Part shown: piece by piece, positions 765-64,000 of the stretch
How the letters are laid out: each line of letters opens with the position of its first letter
Position numbering within the stretch: the first letter of the stretch is position 1
DNA from: Candidatus Methylomirabilis lanthanidiphila
GTDB taxonomy: Bacteria; Methylomirabilota; Methylomirabilia; Methylomirabilales; Methylomirabilaceae
Reading direction: 5' to 3'
Assembly: GCA_902196205.1 (NCBI GenBank)
Contig: CABIKM010000029.1
Location: 1-64,000 of the forward strand
DNA: 64,000 nt
The notes under the pieces: model-generated
What the model was told of the DNA's origin: nothing
What the model saw: only the letters and a program-made list of their open reading frames with translations
Database searches by the model: none
Program-made: the position numbers and the translations under genes

Positions 765-2681
765 CTACACGTAGAGGACCCGCTCATCATTCTGCCGACG
801 AGTCAGCTTCGCGCTATCGAAATGCTCCAGAAAGGGAATCGCAAACTTCCGGCTCACCCCCAGCAGCTCCTTGAACTGCTGGACCGTAATGACGGCGTGG
901 AACCTGAAGTGGTTGAGGAGCATCTCTTTCGCACGGCTGTAGTGGTCGCGGTGAAGATAGAGGTTGTCTTTGATTTTGATGACTGTCCCTTCGTCGACAA
1001 GGCAACGAAAGATCGTCATCCCGGTCTTGCGGGCTGATCCGGCTTGGGTCAGCGCCGCCTCCAGATCCGGCGGCTGAAGACCTGCCTGCTGGTAGATCGC
1101 AGCTAATCGATCTTTGACGGCCTGTTCCGGGGCTGAGAGGGTGGGACGATGCAGGAAATGTCGCACCTTCTCCCGGTCGATGACGATTTGCTGCGTCTCC
1201 ACGAGACTCTGTAACAGGTGAGCAAACAGGACCGGCCCAACCTGATGCAGTTTAGATCGCAGCTCTTCCTTCGGCAGCCCGTCCTTGAGGGGTTCTTGTC
1301 TGTGGAAATCCTCCAGACGAGCAACGATCTCCGTCGCCAGACGATCATAGTTCAGCCGATGAACGTATCCGAGCGCACCGTTGGCACCCAACGCCAGAGC
1401 CATCCCGCTCTCGACGAGGCGCCTGAGCTCCCGCTGCAGTGTAGTATCATCCAGGCTGGCTGACACCCTGAGCGCGTCCAGCGCGATCGGCGTCGGTCCG
1501 GCCTGCGCCAGCAGGCGCTCAACCTGCTGACCCGCTGTACCGGTCTGCAAGACCTTGAGGTGTTCGAGCAACGGCCCCTTGGCCCGGCGCCGCATCGGCG
1601 GGTTCGGGTCGAGGATGCTCCCGCCCCCGATCGTCTGGGCAGGCGAGTAGCTTCGGATCACATACCGGTCGCCGGCCAGGGCGGCCGCCGGACCCTCAAG
1701 TCGCACGTGAGCGAACGTCTCGTCGCCGGGGTTCAGATCCTCACCGTCGAGCAGGACGACTCGAGCCAGGATCTCGCTTGTTCCCAAGTGGAACCGGACC
1801 CTCGCCCGGTTCCGCAGGGCGCGCGGAGCATCCTTCAGGAGGGCTAACGATACATCGAAGGTCATGGAAGGTTCCAGAGCGTCCGGAACGCTCAGAAGAT
1901 CGCCTCGATTGAGTTGATCCACCTCAAGACCGGGTAGGTTGACGGCGATCCGCTGCCCGGCCCAGGCCTGTTCTACCGTCCGACCGTGGACCTGAAGCCG
2001 CCGAACCCGTGAACGCAACTCTAGAGGGAGAACGACCACCTCGTCCCCGGCTCGCAACGTCCCGGACCACAGGGTGCCGGTCACTACCGTGCCGAATCCT
2101 TTGATGGTAAAGACCCGATCAATCGGGAGACGAACAATTCCGTCATGACGCTTCGGCCCGATCGTCTCGGCCGCCTCACGGAGGACCGATCTCAACTGCG
2201 GAAGCCCTTGCCCGGTAACAGCAGATACCGGAACGACCGGCGCGCCCTCAAGAAAGGTCCCTGCCAGAAACCCTTTCAGGTCGGCCCGTATCATCTCCAG
2301 CCAGTCGGGCTCGACGAGGTCGACCTTCGTCAGCACCACCACGCCCCGCTTGATCTGCAGCAACTCGCAGATATGGAGGTGCTCCCGCGTCTGCGGCATC
2401 ACCCCCTCGTCCGCGCCGATGACCAGCACAACCAGATCGATCCCACCGACGCCCGCGAGCATGGTCTTCACGAACCGTTCATGCCCCGGAACGTCTATAA
2501 TCCCGAGCTGGAGGTCGTCGGAGAGAGTCAGGTCGGCAAAACCCAGCTCGATGGAGATCCCCCGCTCCTTCTCCTCCTTCAACCGGTCGGTATCGATGCC
2601 GGTCAGGGCTTTGACGAGCGCGGTCTTCCCATGATCGATATGGCCGGCTGTCCCGATGATAATATGCTTTATTGCCGTCAC
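765..2681 (-). CDS. selB: Selenocysteine-specific elongation factor SelB
   Basis: SelB delivers selenocysteyl-tRNA to UGA codons followed by a SECIS hairpin. The roughly 638-residue protein has an EF-Tu-like GTPase domain with P-loop [19 protein letters not shown], switch region [22 protein letters not shown] and the TKVD base-recognition motif. Domains II and III follow, then a long C-terminal part of winged helices that binds the SECIS. The frame is open to 2717, but a GTG at 2681 gives [13 protein letters not shown], the usual SelB N-terminus, so that start is preferred. selA and selC are not adjacent. Its presence means the organism can decode UGA as Sec, which supports the selenoprotein reading at 59652-59876. 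Confidence 0.95.
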
Positions 2682-2744
2682 AGCGCCATGGTAGCACATG
2701 CGTCCAAGCCGCAACAAGGTTGAAGCCCCTACACCGGTTTTCCC

Positions 2745-59498: not shown

Positions 59499-59612
59499 TT
59501 ATCCCAACCAGATCAAAAACTTTGTGACATATTTCATTGCGAACATGGAGGCCAACAGCATCGCTAACCCTATAATCGTATTGATATGACGCCACTTATT
59601 ATTGGGTTGCAT
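59499..59612 (-). CDS. Small single-helix membrane protein
   Basis: A 37-codon frame reads MQPNNKWRHINTIIGLAMLL, then ASMFAMKYVTKFLIWLG. It has a basic start, a hydrophobic helix and a hydrophobic C-terminal end. It lies 40 bp downstream of the selenoprotein stop, with the SECIS hairpin in between. The ribosome-binding site is weak (AGAAAG). The amino acid composition looks like a real membrane peptide; no family recognised. Confidence 0.5.
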   Translation of the reverse strand: MQPNNKWRHINTIIGLAMLLASMFAMKYVTKFLIWLG

Positions 59613-59631
59613 ATTTCTTTCTCACTTATAC

Positions 59632-59649
59632 GGCCGACGACCGTCGGCC
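59632..59649 (-). promoter_or_regulatory. SECIS-like hairpin for the C-terminal UGA
   Basis: On the minus strand GGCCGAC-GGTC-GTCGGCC forms a perfect 7-bp stem with a GGUC loop. The loop starts exactly 18 nt after the UGA at 59663-59661. The E. coli fdhF SECIS has its GGUCU loop at the same 18-nt distance. There is no run of T after the stem, so it does not look like a terminator. Confidence 0.75.
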
Positions 59650-59651
59650 TC

Positions 59652-59876
59652 TTAGACTGCTCAGGTTCCGCCAAACCCAGTGGTTACCTTACCGTTCTCG
59701 ACAATGACGGGGACATCGCGCGAGCCTTTCGAGAGTTCCAGCATCTGCGCCAAGGCCTCAGGATCTTGCTTGACATTATGGTACGTGAATGGGACGTTTC
59801 GCCTGGCGTAGTCCTCACGGGCCGCCGAGGTATAGGGTCAGGTATCTTTCCCGTAGATGACGACTGGTGTCTCCAT
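59652..59876 (-). CDS. Glutaredoxin-like selenoprotein with two in-frame UGA codons
   Basis: Translation from ATG 59876 (GGAGG 6 nt upstream) gives METPVVIYGKDT, UGA, P-Y-T-S-A-A-R-E-D-Y-A-R-R, then VPFTYHNVKQDPEALAQMLE, LSKGSRDVPVIVENGKVTTG, F-G-G-T, UGA, A-V, TAA. The first UGA (59840-59838, residue 13) falls where glutaredoxins have the active-site Cys of C-P-Y-T/C; the cis-Pro segment DVPVIV is intact. The second UGA (59663-59661, residue 72) would give Sec-Ala-Val at the C-terminus, followed by a SECIS-like hairpin at the right distance. Predicted length is 74 residues. It lies 40 bp behind a hypothetical gene and ahead of a small membrane protein, so an operon is likely. SelB is encoded in this window. 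A thiol/selenol redox role is inferred. Confidence 0.85.
59802..59830 (-). promoter_or_regulatory. Possible SECIS for the active-site UGA
   Basis: Seven nt after the UGA at 59840-59838, CCT-c-GGCG can pair with CGCC-AGG around a 14-nt loop containing GU (GCCCGTGAGGACTA). An alternative is CCTC/GAGG. The stem is weaker than that of the second UGA. Confidence 0.35.
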
Positions 59877-59916
59877 GATTTCCTCCACGCTCTTCACTCC
59901 GTCTGATGCAGGCGCG

Positions 59917-60282
59917 TCAGACCCTGGTCATCACTCGCTCGCCCTCTGTGATTGACCGCTCGTAAGCAACCTTGATCTCGCGAATCTGCGGGTAGAGCTC
60001 CTGGATCCGCTCGTGGGGGAGCGGGATGACCCGGCTCAACTGGGTCAGCCGCTCTCCAAGGAGCTTGGCCTGTCTGAGGATGTCAAGCTTCTTGTGTGCC
60101 GGCGGGGACAACGTCGCCCCTTCCAGGAGGGCGAGCATCCCGTCCTCATCGCGCGCCTGGTGCAGTTCATCCAGTCGCTGCGCCTGGGTCTCGGTAAGAC
60201 CGCTTTCCGCCAGGGCATGCAGGGCCTTCATCCGGTCGATTCGATAGCGAATATCGAGCATCATCCCTCCTTGGTGCGCCAT
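59917..60282 (-). CDS. Hypothetical protein upstream of the selenoprotein
   Basis: The 121-residue protein is helical and charged (MLDIRYRIDRMKALHALAES, LTETQAQRLDELHQARDEDG, IPLPHERIQELYPQIREIKV). It has no recognised motif, signal peptide or membrane segment. AAGGAGG lies only 4 nt before an internal ATG at 60258, which may be the true start rather than 60282. Its stop is 40 bp before the selenoprotein start, so a shared transcript is likely. Confidence 0.65.
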   Translation of the reverse strand: MAHQGGMMLDIRYRIDRMKALHALAESGLTETQAQRLDELHQARDEDGMLALLEGATLSPPAHKKLDILRQAKLLGERLTQLSRVIPLPHERIQELYPQIREIKVAYERSITEGERVMTRV

Positions 60283-61916: not shown

Positions 61917-63332
61917 TCAGCGCTCGGCCAGGGCCGCCGTCTGGGGCGCCATGGCCGCCCGCATCTGCGCCAGGGCCGCTTCCAGGCGATCCTGCTGGGC
62001 CTTGAGCGCCGCCAGCGCATGCTGGTGTTCGGTCTTGAGTGTTTGCAGCTCATTGAGCAACAGCGGGATCACCTGCTGATAGTCCACCCCCAGCACCTCT
62101 CCCGTCGCGGTGCGGGTCACCAGTTCCGGATAGAGGGTCGCGACCTCCTCGGCGATCAGGCCGTACTGCAGCCGTCCCGCCGGATCGGCCGTGTAGCGGA
62201 AACTGACCGGCCGAAGCTGGAACAGCTCATGACTCCGGATCCCCAAGGCTGCGATGTCGCGCTTATAGCGGGCGGACGACGGGGCGGTGCCCAGCCGACC
62301 GCTGCTGTCGATAATCACGGTCTGTCCGCCCGGAACGACGGCGCCAGAGACCCCGGCCATGAAGGCGCTGGTCTGGACCGCAGGGGTGCCCAGACGCAGG
62401 GTATTCGATTCGGCGCCCTCGCTGTCGGGGCCGGGCGAGCCCAGGTAGATGTTGTTGTCGCCGCTGGTCAGGTTCAGACCCGCCTGAGAACCGATGCCGA
62501 TATTGACTGAGCCGGTGCCGGCCCGCAGGGCGCCGCGGCCCAGGGCGACGTTGCCGCTGCCGGCCGTGTTGGTGTACAAGGCGTTGGAGCCGAGGGCGAT
62601 GTTGCCGTTGCCGACGGTGTTGGAGAGCAGCGCGTTTTGGCCCAGCGCGGTGTTGTTGGCGCCGATGGTGTTGGTGTTGAGCGTGCTCCAGCCGAGGGCG
62701 GTATTGTTGTAGCCGGTAGTGTTGGCGAAAAGCGCCTCTGTGCCGACAGCGAGGTTGCCGTCGCCGATAGTATTGGAGAGGAGTGCAGAGTCGCCGACAG
62801 CGATGTTGCCGTTGCCGGTGGTGTTGGAAAAGAGTACGTCTTTGCCAACCGCGGTGTTGCCGTTGCCGGTGGTGTTGGAAAAGAGTACGTCTTTGCCAAC
62901 CGCGGTGTTGCCGGAGCCGATGGTGTTGTGCGTGAGTGCGAGGTCGCCAAGGGCCGTGTTGCCTTCGCCAACGGTGTTGTCGAAAAGCGCCGAGTCGCCG
63001 ACAGCGATGTTGTAGTGGCCGCTCGTATTAGAGTAGAGCGCTCTATTGCCGGCAGCAACGCTGTAAGAACCGGTGGTGTTGTAGGTGAGCGCGAACTCGC
63101 CAACAGCGGTGTTGTGTTCGCCGGTGGTATTGTCGTAGAGCGCGTCGTGGCCATAGGCGGTGTTGCCGGAGCCGCTTGTCACGCTTATCAACGCGCCCGC
63201 GCCCCCGCCGGTGTTGCCGCCATCGCCGGTGTCGTCGTTGGTCGCCGGGTACCCGCCGCCCCAGCTTGGTGCCGCCGTCAACAGAAGGATCAGACCAAGT
63301 ACCACTCCCGCATGTCCCACCACTCGCTTCAT
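61917..63332 (-). CDS. Exported YadA-head-like repeat protein with S74 chaperone domain
   Basis: The 471-residue protein has a signal peptide (GVVLGLILLLTAAPSWGGG). About 13 repeats of 17 residues follow, with consensus NTAVGxxALxxNTTGxG, the left-handed beta-roll motif of YadA/Hia heads. Near residue 325 comes a Peptidase_S74 domain (SSARYKRDIAALGIRSHELF, LQYGLIAEEVATLYPELVTR), an intramolecular chaperone that trimerises and cleaves itself at the Ser of S-x-x-x-x-K. The C-terminal 40 residues are a coiled coil (HALAALKAQQDRLEAALAQM). It should form a trimeric surface fibre. A paralogue lies directly upstream. Confidence 0.85.
   Translation of the reverse strand: MKRVVGHAGVVLGLILLLTAAPSWGGGYPATNDDTGDGGNTGGGAGALISVTSGSGNTAYGHDALYDNTTGEHNTAVGEFALTYNTTGSYSVAAGNRALYSNTSGHYNIAVGDSALFDNTVGEGNTALGDLALTHNTIGSGNTAVGKDVLFSNTTGNGNTAVGKDVLFSNTTGNGNIAVGDSALLSNTIGDGNLAVGTEALFANTTGYNNTALGWSTLNTNTIGANNTALGQNALLSNTVGNGNIALGSNALYTNTAGSGNVALGRGALRAGTGSVNIGIGSQAGLNLTSGDNNIYLGSPGPDSEGAESNTLRLGTPAVQTSAFMAGVSGAVVPGGQTVIIDSSGRLGTAPSSARYKRDIAALGIRSHELFQLRPVSFRYTADPAGRLQYGLIAEEVATLYPELVTRTATGEVLGVDYQQVIPLLLNELQTLKTEHQHALAALKAQQDRLEAALAQMRAAMAPQTAALAER
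62530..63180. repeat. 51-bp coding repeats of the fibre protein
   Basis: The 17-residue head repeats are encoded by 51-bp units. Units at 62821 and 62872 are identical over more than 40 bp (GTGTTGGAAAAGAGTACGTC...), showing a recent duplication. Confidence 0.85.
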
Positions 63333-63491: not shown

Positions 63492-64000
63492 CTACCTCAG
63501 CGCCGCCGTCTGGGGCGCCAGGGCCGCCCGTATCTGCAGCAGTTCCGCCCGGAGGCTGTCCTGCTGAGCCTTCAGCAGCGCGAGTTCCTGCTCATGGTCC
63601 GCCTTCAACGCCACCACATCCTGCCGGTGTCGATCCTGCGCCTGCTGGTGCTCCGCCTTCAGCACTTGCAGTTCATTCAGCAACAGCGGGATCAGTTGCG
63701 GGTAGTCCACCCCCAGCACCTCTCCCGTCGCGGTGCGGGTCACCAGTTCCGGATAGAGGGTCGCGACCTCCTCGGCGATCAGGCCGTACTGCGCCCGTCC
63801 GGCTGGGTCGTCCTTATAGCGGAAGCTGACCGGCCGAAGCTGGAACAGCTCATGACTCCGGATCCCCAAGGCTGCGATGTCGCGCTTGTAACGGGCCGAG
63901 GAGGGGAGCACGCCCAACCGGCCACTGGCATCGATGACCACGGTCTGTCCGCCAGGAACGACGGCGCCAGAGACCCCGGCCATGAAGGCGCTGGTCTGGA
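63492..64000 (-). CDS. Second S74-domain fibre protein, C-terminal part (runs off window)
   Basis: This frame is open to the window end and encodes the last 169 residues of a paralogue of the 61917 gene. Its S74 domain (SSARYKRDIAALGIRSHELF, AQYGLIAEEVATLYPELVTR) is nearly the same as that of the neighbour. The C-terminal coiled coil is longer (HQQAQDRHRQDVVALKADHE and on). The head region lies beyond the window. The two genes are tandem copies, 160 bp apart. Confidence 0.85.
   Translation of the reverse strand, partial: QTSAFMAGVSGAVVPGGQTVVIDASGRLGVLPSSARYKRDIAALGIRSHELFQLRPVSFRYKDDPAGRAQYGLIAEEVATLYPELVTRTATGEVLGVDYPQLIPLLLNELQVLKAEHQQAQDRHRQDVVALKADHEQELALLKAQQDSLRAELLQIRAALAPQTAALR

Follow-up and report, generated by a model that had tools for sequence, protein, structure and literature searches.

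Sequence evidence for a two-selenocysteine, glutaredoxin-like member of UXX-star family 1 in Candidatus Methylomirabilis lanthanidiphila

The window analyzed here, a stretch of 64,000 nucleotides in its full length, comes from the genome of Candidatus Methylomirabilis lanthanidiphila (3.05 Mb, 99.98% complete) and contains on its minus strand a short reading frame that opens behind a ribosome-binding site and continues through two in-frame UGA codons to a TAA stop. A preliminary description made from the DNA letters had reported this frame together with its GGAGG start, its glutaredoxin motif and its TAA end, and re-reading of the window bears out all of these coordinates. When TGA is read as selenocysteine (Sec, U), the translation is METPVVIYGKDTUPYTSAAREDYARRNVPFTYHNVKQDPEALAQMLELSKGSRDVPVIVENGKVTTGFGGTUAV, and it ends in the codons UGA-GCA-GTC-TAA, meaning that Sec is the third-last residue before the stop. 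The features of the locus, and the selB gene of the same window, are as follows.

765..2717 (-), selB, the Sec-specific elongation factor (377 bits, cut-off 242; start codon uncertain)
59499..59612 (-), 37-aa one-helix membrane-like ORF directly downstream of the SECIS, no Pfam match
59632..59649 (-), SECIS for the second UGA, past the stop codon; stem of 7 bp and a GGUC loop beginning 18 nt behind UGA2, -12.9 kcal/mol
59652..59876 (-), probable coding sequence of the glutaredoxin-like protein with two Sec (UXX-star family 1), 74 aa and TAA stop
59661..59663 (-), UGA2, predicted Sec72 (Sec-Ala-Val-stop)
59805..59826 (-), putative SECIS of UGA1, GGCG-GC-CC-[GUGA]-GG-ACUA-CGCC, loop beginning 19 nt after UGA1
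59838..59840 (-), UGA1, predicted Sec13, at the position of the first Cys in the CPYx motif of glutaredoxins
59882..59886 (-), ribosome-binding site (GGAGG) that precedes the ATG by 5 nt, read from the sequence
59917..60261 (-), 114-aa protein directly upstream, no Pfam match, conserved in the genus, ending at an ordinary UGA

The frame matches the NCBIfam model NF041114, “UXX-star selenoprotein family 1”, with 122.9 bits against a cut-off of 72 (E=4e-36) over the whole profile (1-70 of 70), and the model for Uxx-star glutaredoxin-like (seleno)proteins in general, NF041212, with 105.7 bits against 66, both matches spanning residues 5-74. The preliminary description had pointed to a glutaredoxin-like family with a C-terminal Sec-x-x-stop and had suggested a search with profile models; the family exists under these two accessions, and the search places the frame above both cut-offs. 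The Uxx-star proteins in general and families 2 and 3 share the fold and the C-terminal motif with the present protein, but the frame stays below the thresholds of families 2 and 3 (NF041211, 63.7 of 100; NF047338, 54.9 of 97). The UxxT site near the N terminus is U13-P-Y-T16, which with the C-terminal residue gives two Sec in total, and NF041114 is given as having two Sec and UxxT in a 2026 review, under the name “Distant Grx-like protein 1” (PMC13188914). In its full-length match, UxxT site, C-terminal Sec-x-x-stop and two Sec residues, the present protein shows no essential difference from family 1. The kind is thus already known, the two-Sec family being listed both in NCBIfam and in the review, and the present gene is one more member of it; because NCBI has models for the NF041114 family, the label “unannotated” that the gene had been given may be wrong.

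The conservation of both UGA codons speaks for their translation. We compared 60 non-identical relatives whose frames end in [U/C]-x-x-stop; the search pattern demanded this ending and thereby accounts in part for its recurrence, but it did not force the second site to be TGA, which it is in 60/60 relatives and never a Cys codon. Both sites are TGA in 52/60, relatives that come from several phyla, and the remaining eight (8/60) carry a Cys codon instead of the first UGA, which provides the comparison with Cys forms that had been suggested for this gene. Frames broken elsewhere, or relatives that end at the first UGA, had been named in the preliminary description as observations that would speak against it; neither was seen, the frame being unbroken in all 60 relatives with TAA or TAG inside it in none (0/60). 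Within the genus, 14 of the 14 other genomes searched have the frame with both UGAs at the same positions, and the same two-UGA frame recurs in further genomes of the order. The viral collection that was searched contained no relative, and the plasmid search returned only two, both distant. Comparison with 13 congeners gave 108, 58 and 311 differences at codon positions 1, 2 and 3, a strong third-position excess. A glutaredoxin pseudogene that had decayed through two nonsense mutations would also display two in-frame stops under the standard code; against such decay stand this excess and the 52 non-identical relatives that have the same two UGAs and no other stops, and we reject it as having next to no probability, since both UGAs are conserved. 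Just as improbable is the overlapping plus-strand ORF (59586-59906, 106 aa) as the true gene: it is open in the window, but most congeners (L003-L007, L029, L032, L034, L036, and L037) have stops in its register, and it is the minus-strand frame that matches a curated family; the broken copies refute it. Judged by its looks, 59652-59876 is a real, working gene.

The genome has the means to insert Sec. The preliminary description had placed selB in the window, where it indeed lies, and had held that the gene would be in doubt if selA, selC or selD were absent; all three were found (selA, 604 bits; selD, 406 bits; tRNA-Sec, selC, 65.9 bits with a gathering score of 47), so that the full set of selA, selB, selC and selD is present in one genome. 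The selD gene (G000:C30:70642-71568, L060) is itself a selenoprotein gene, with a UGA in the motif HGAGUACK. Reading UGA as a sense codon such as Trp or Gly throughout the genome, with no Sec involved, would open the frame as well, but ordinary UGA stops are in use, one of them ending the upstream gene on the same strand (59917-60261), Cys occupies the first site in some relatives, the Sec machinery is complete, and each UGA has a downstream element of its own, as set out below. We consider such a reassignment to be refuted by the UGA stops and the Cys replacements, and it retains a negligible probability. A further observation concerns the end of the frame: UGA is also the gene's own stop, two codons behind the Sec UGA, in 27/60 relatives (among them L009, L010, L011, L014, L017, L018, L020, L022, L023, L027, L041, L045, L047, L052, L053, and L057). 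The two UGAs of such a pair are 9 nt apart from start to start and are read differently, and the sequence behind them is apparently not conserved.

Behind UGA2, a 7-bp stem with a GGUC loop starting 18 nt downstream had been described, and the hairpin is there at 59649-59632 with the sequence GGCCGAC-GGUC-GUCGGCC. The fdhF SECIS of Escherichia coli, a hairpin inside the gene, has a GGUC loop 18 nt after its UGA; loop and spacing are the same in the UGA2 hairpin, which differs in lying past the stop codon and in having a plain 7-bp stem. It satisfies all of the published rules for bacterial SECIS elements, namely 4-16 bp, a loop of 3-9 with G in the first two positions, a spacing of 16-37 nt and ≤ -7.5 kcal/mol (PMC13188914). 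An Rfam search at the locus found no family. By one procedure applied to all TGAs, which asked for a stability of ≤ -7.5 kcal/mol and a G at loop position 1 or 2, a hairpin of this kind follows UGA2 in 53/60 relatives, versus 235/3793 (6.2%) control TGAs of the same loci. The loop is GGUC in 29/60 relatives, and nearly all have a G[G/U] loop at 15-22 nt; each of the stem positions 1-7 shows five or six pair types with both sides changed, which is compensatory change. Because the hairpin starts just after the stop codon, its conservation is not explicable by the protein. A GC-rich hairpin immediately past a stop codon might instead be an intrinsic transcription terminator, but no T run lies behind 59632-59649, a terminator scan finds none here, and a terminator has no need of the spacing that the loop keeps among relatives. 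On these grounds, the lacking T run and the conserved loop spacing, we reject a terminator as quite improbable.

A separate putative element, absent from the preliminary description, lies behind UGA1. Its inner CC/GG pairs and a GUGA or GGGA loop at 19 nt are conserved, and its lower stem is partly paired across relatives. The loop position fits the bacterial SECIS rules, but the strictly conserved upper stem has 2 bp, which is below the published 4-bp rule. Since RNAalifold gave no consensus fold for the UGA1 region of the relatives, the case for this element rests on codon choice. The second loop letter is the third base of the Arg20 codon, and among the 52 Sec forms 30 have T at this base, 22 have G (including one AGG) and none has C, so the codon is CGT, CGG or AGG. 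Elsewhere in these genes CGC is used for Arg more often than any other codon (74/184), and at Arg20 it occurs in 5/8 Cys forms versus 0/52 Sec forms (Fisher p=1e-5, an optimistic value as the relatives are not independent). The bias agrees with the G[G/U] loop rule. This codon evidence supports selection on the UGA1 element, for which it makes a weaker case than that for the UGA2 element. Taking the profile matches, the conservation of both UGAs and the downstream elements together, we conclude that the locus encodes a two-Sec member (Sec13, Sec72) of UXX-star family 1, with a probability of roughly 0.95.

The neighborhood of the gene was also inspected. The upstream 114-aa gene is present at the congeneric loci and has only weak matches outside the genus (~31% identity, loci L009 and L040), and the downstream 37-aa ORF is found at most congeneric loci and not outside the genus. 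Among the nearest ORFs of ten distant relatives, compared by eye, no neighbor recurs across phyla, and therefore no function can be taken from gene context. Elsewhere in the window, 61920-63332 (-) is a long ORF of repetitive sequence that carries a Peptidase_S74 domain (endosialidase chaperone), and the C-terminal part of the ORF just upstream of it (63492-63983, (-)) is very similar. Elsewhere in the genome, at about 19400 of contig C22 of G000 (L110, 1381-1900), there is another glutaredoxin-like frame that contains a UGA (SQPGUGACHQ). It adjoins frames resembling a MerB-like lyase with a UGA, a CPNUAG protein and an ArsR-like regulator, names that were assigned by eye; on these names the L110 region is apparently a selenoprotein-rich mercury or arsenic cluster.

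In the confident AlphaFold2 prediction (pLDDT 91) the protein has a glutaredoxin fold, which stops just past the GG motif. The frame matches the Pfam family Glutaredoxin (PF00462) with 49.1 bits against a cut-off of 22.9, and the VP motif with the cis-Pro of this thioredoxin-like fold is invariant among the relatives. Sec13 occupies the position of the glutaredoxin nucleophile, Thr16 replaces the second Cys of CPYC, as in monothiol-type sites, and Sec72 lies two residues past the GG motif. The best PDB matches of the predicted fold are glutaredoxins, including cGrx1 (7c10, 7c12), which we take to be the selenoprotein glutaredoxin of Clostridium oremlandii. The two have the glutaredoxin fold in common and are 34% identical over the match, but the site of cGrx1 is presumably UxxC rather than the UxxT of the present protein, and cGrx1 is without the C-terminal Sec-x-x-stop, its 84-residue chain running on past the GG motif. 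The GG motif of glutaredoxins lines the glutathione site, and since Sec72 adjoins this motif it is probably close to Sec13 and could act as its resolving residue or its partner. The natural form of cGrx1 has an active-site Sec, according to the passage of the review that refers to it (Kim 2011, as cited in PMC13188914).

We propose the following mechanism. SelB and tRNA-Sec would recode each UGA by way of its own downstream element, as the comparison among relatives supports: UGA1 through a short element within the coding sequence, UGA2 through a strong hairpin just past the stop codon. In the folded protein, Sec13, which lies in the monothiol-type UPYT site where helix 1 begins, would attack a disulfide, selenylsulfide or peroxide, and Sec72 nearby would either resolve the intermediate or pair with Sec13, in a diselenide or in a site for a metal or metalloid. 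From the fold and the positions of these residues, the protein is most likely a selenol-based glutaredoxin-like oxidoreductase with Sec13 as the nucleophile and Sec72 as its partner; for the redox mechanism taken by itself, we would put the chances slightly above even. The main rival is a protein that serves as a selenol ligand or chaperone for a metal or metalloid such as mercury or arsenic and not as an oxidoreductase. The Sec residues of UXX-star proteins have been suggested as possible metal ligands or binders of unknown substrates (PMC13188914), the active site, unlike that of dithiol glutaredoxins, has no second Cys, a further selenol close to the GG motif would give a soft-ligand pair, and the other selenoprotein glutaredoxin of the genome adjoins the MerB-like frame with its in-frame UGA. 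No metal-resistance gene was recognized beside the locus, however, either in the window or in the genus, and the cis-Pro and the fold are those of redox-active glutaredoxins, so that we regard the metal-binding role as rather unlikely next to the oxidoreductase.

The gene is confirmed from sequence alone, and it is of a sort that standard gene prediction would break up or overlook. A further reading, which we consider less likely than not, is that UGA1 and UGA2 are recoded by unlike elements, a minimal loop in the coding region and a strong post-stop hairpin, while a third UGA, two codons past the second, still acts as a stop in almost half of the relatives, and that Sec13 and Sec72 join in an intramolecular diselenide or make up a metal site within a glutaredoxin fold that is truncated behind GG. 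Two questions are raised here that are not new in kind and for which the family is natural material: how the ribosome separates a Sec-UGA from a stop-UGA a few codons apart, and what role a second selenol plays beside a glutaredoxin active site.
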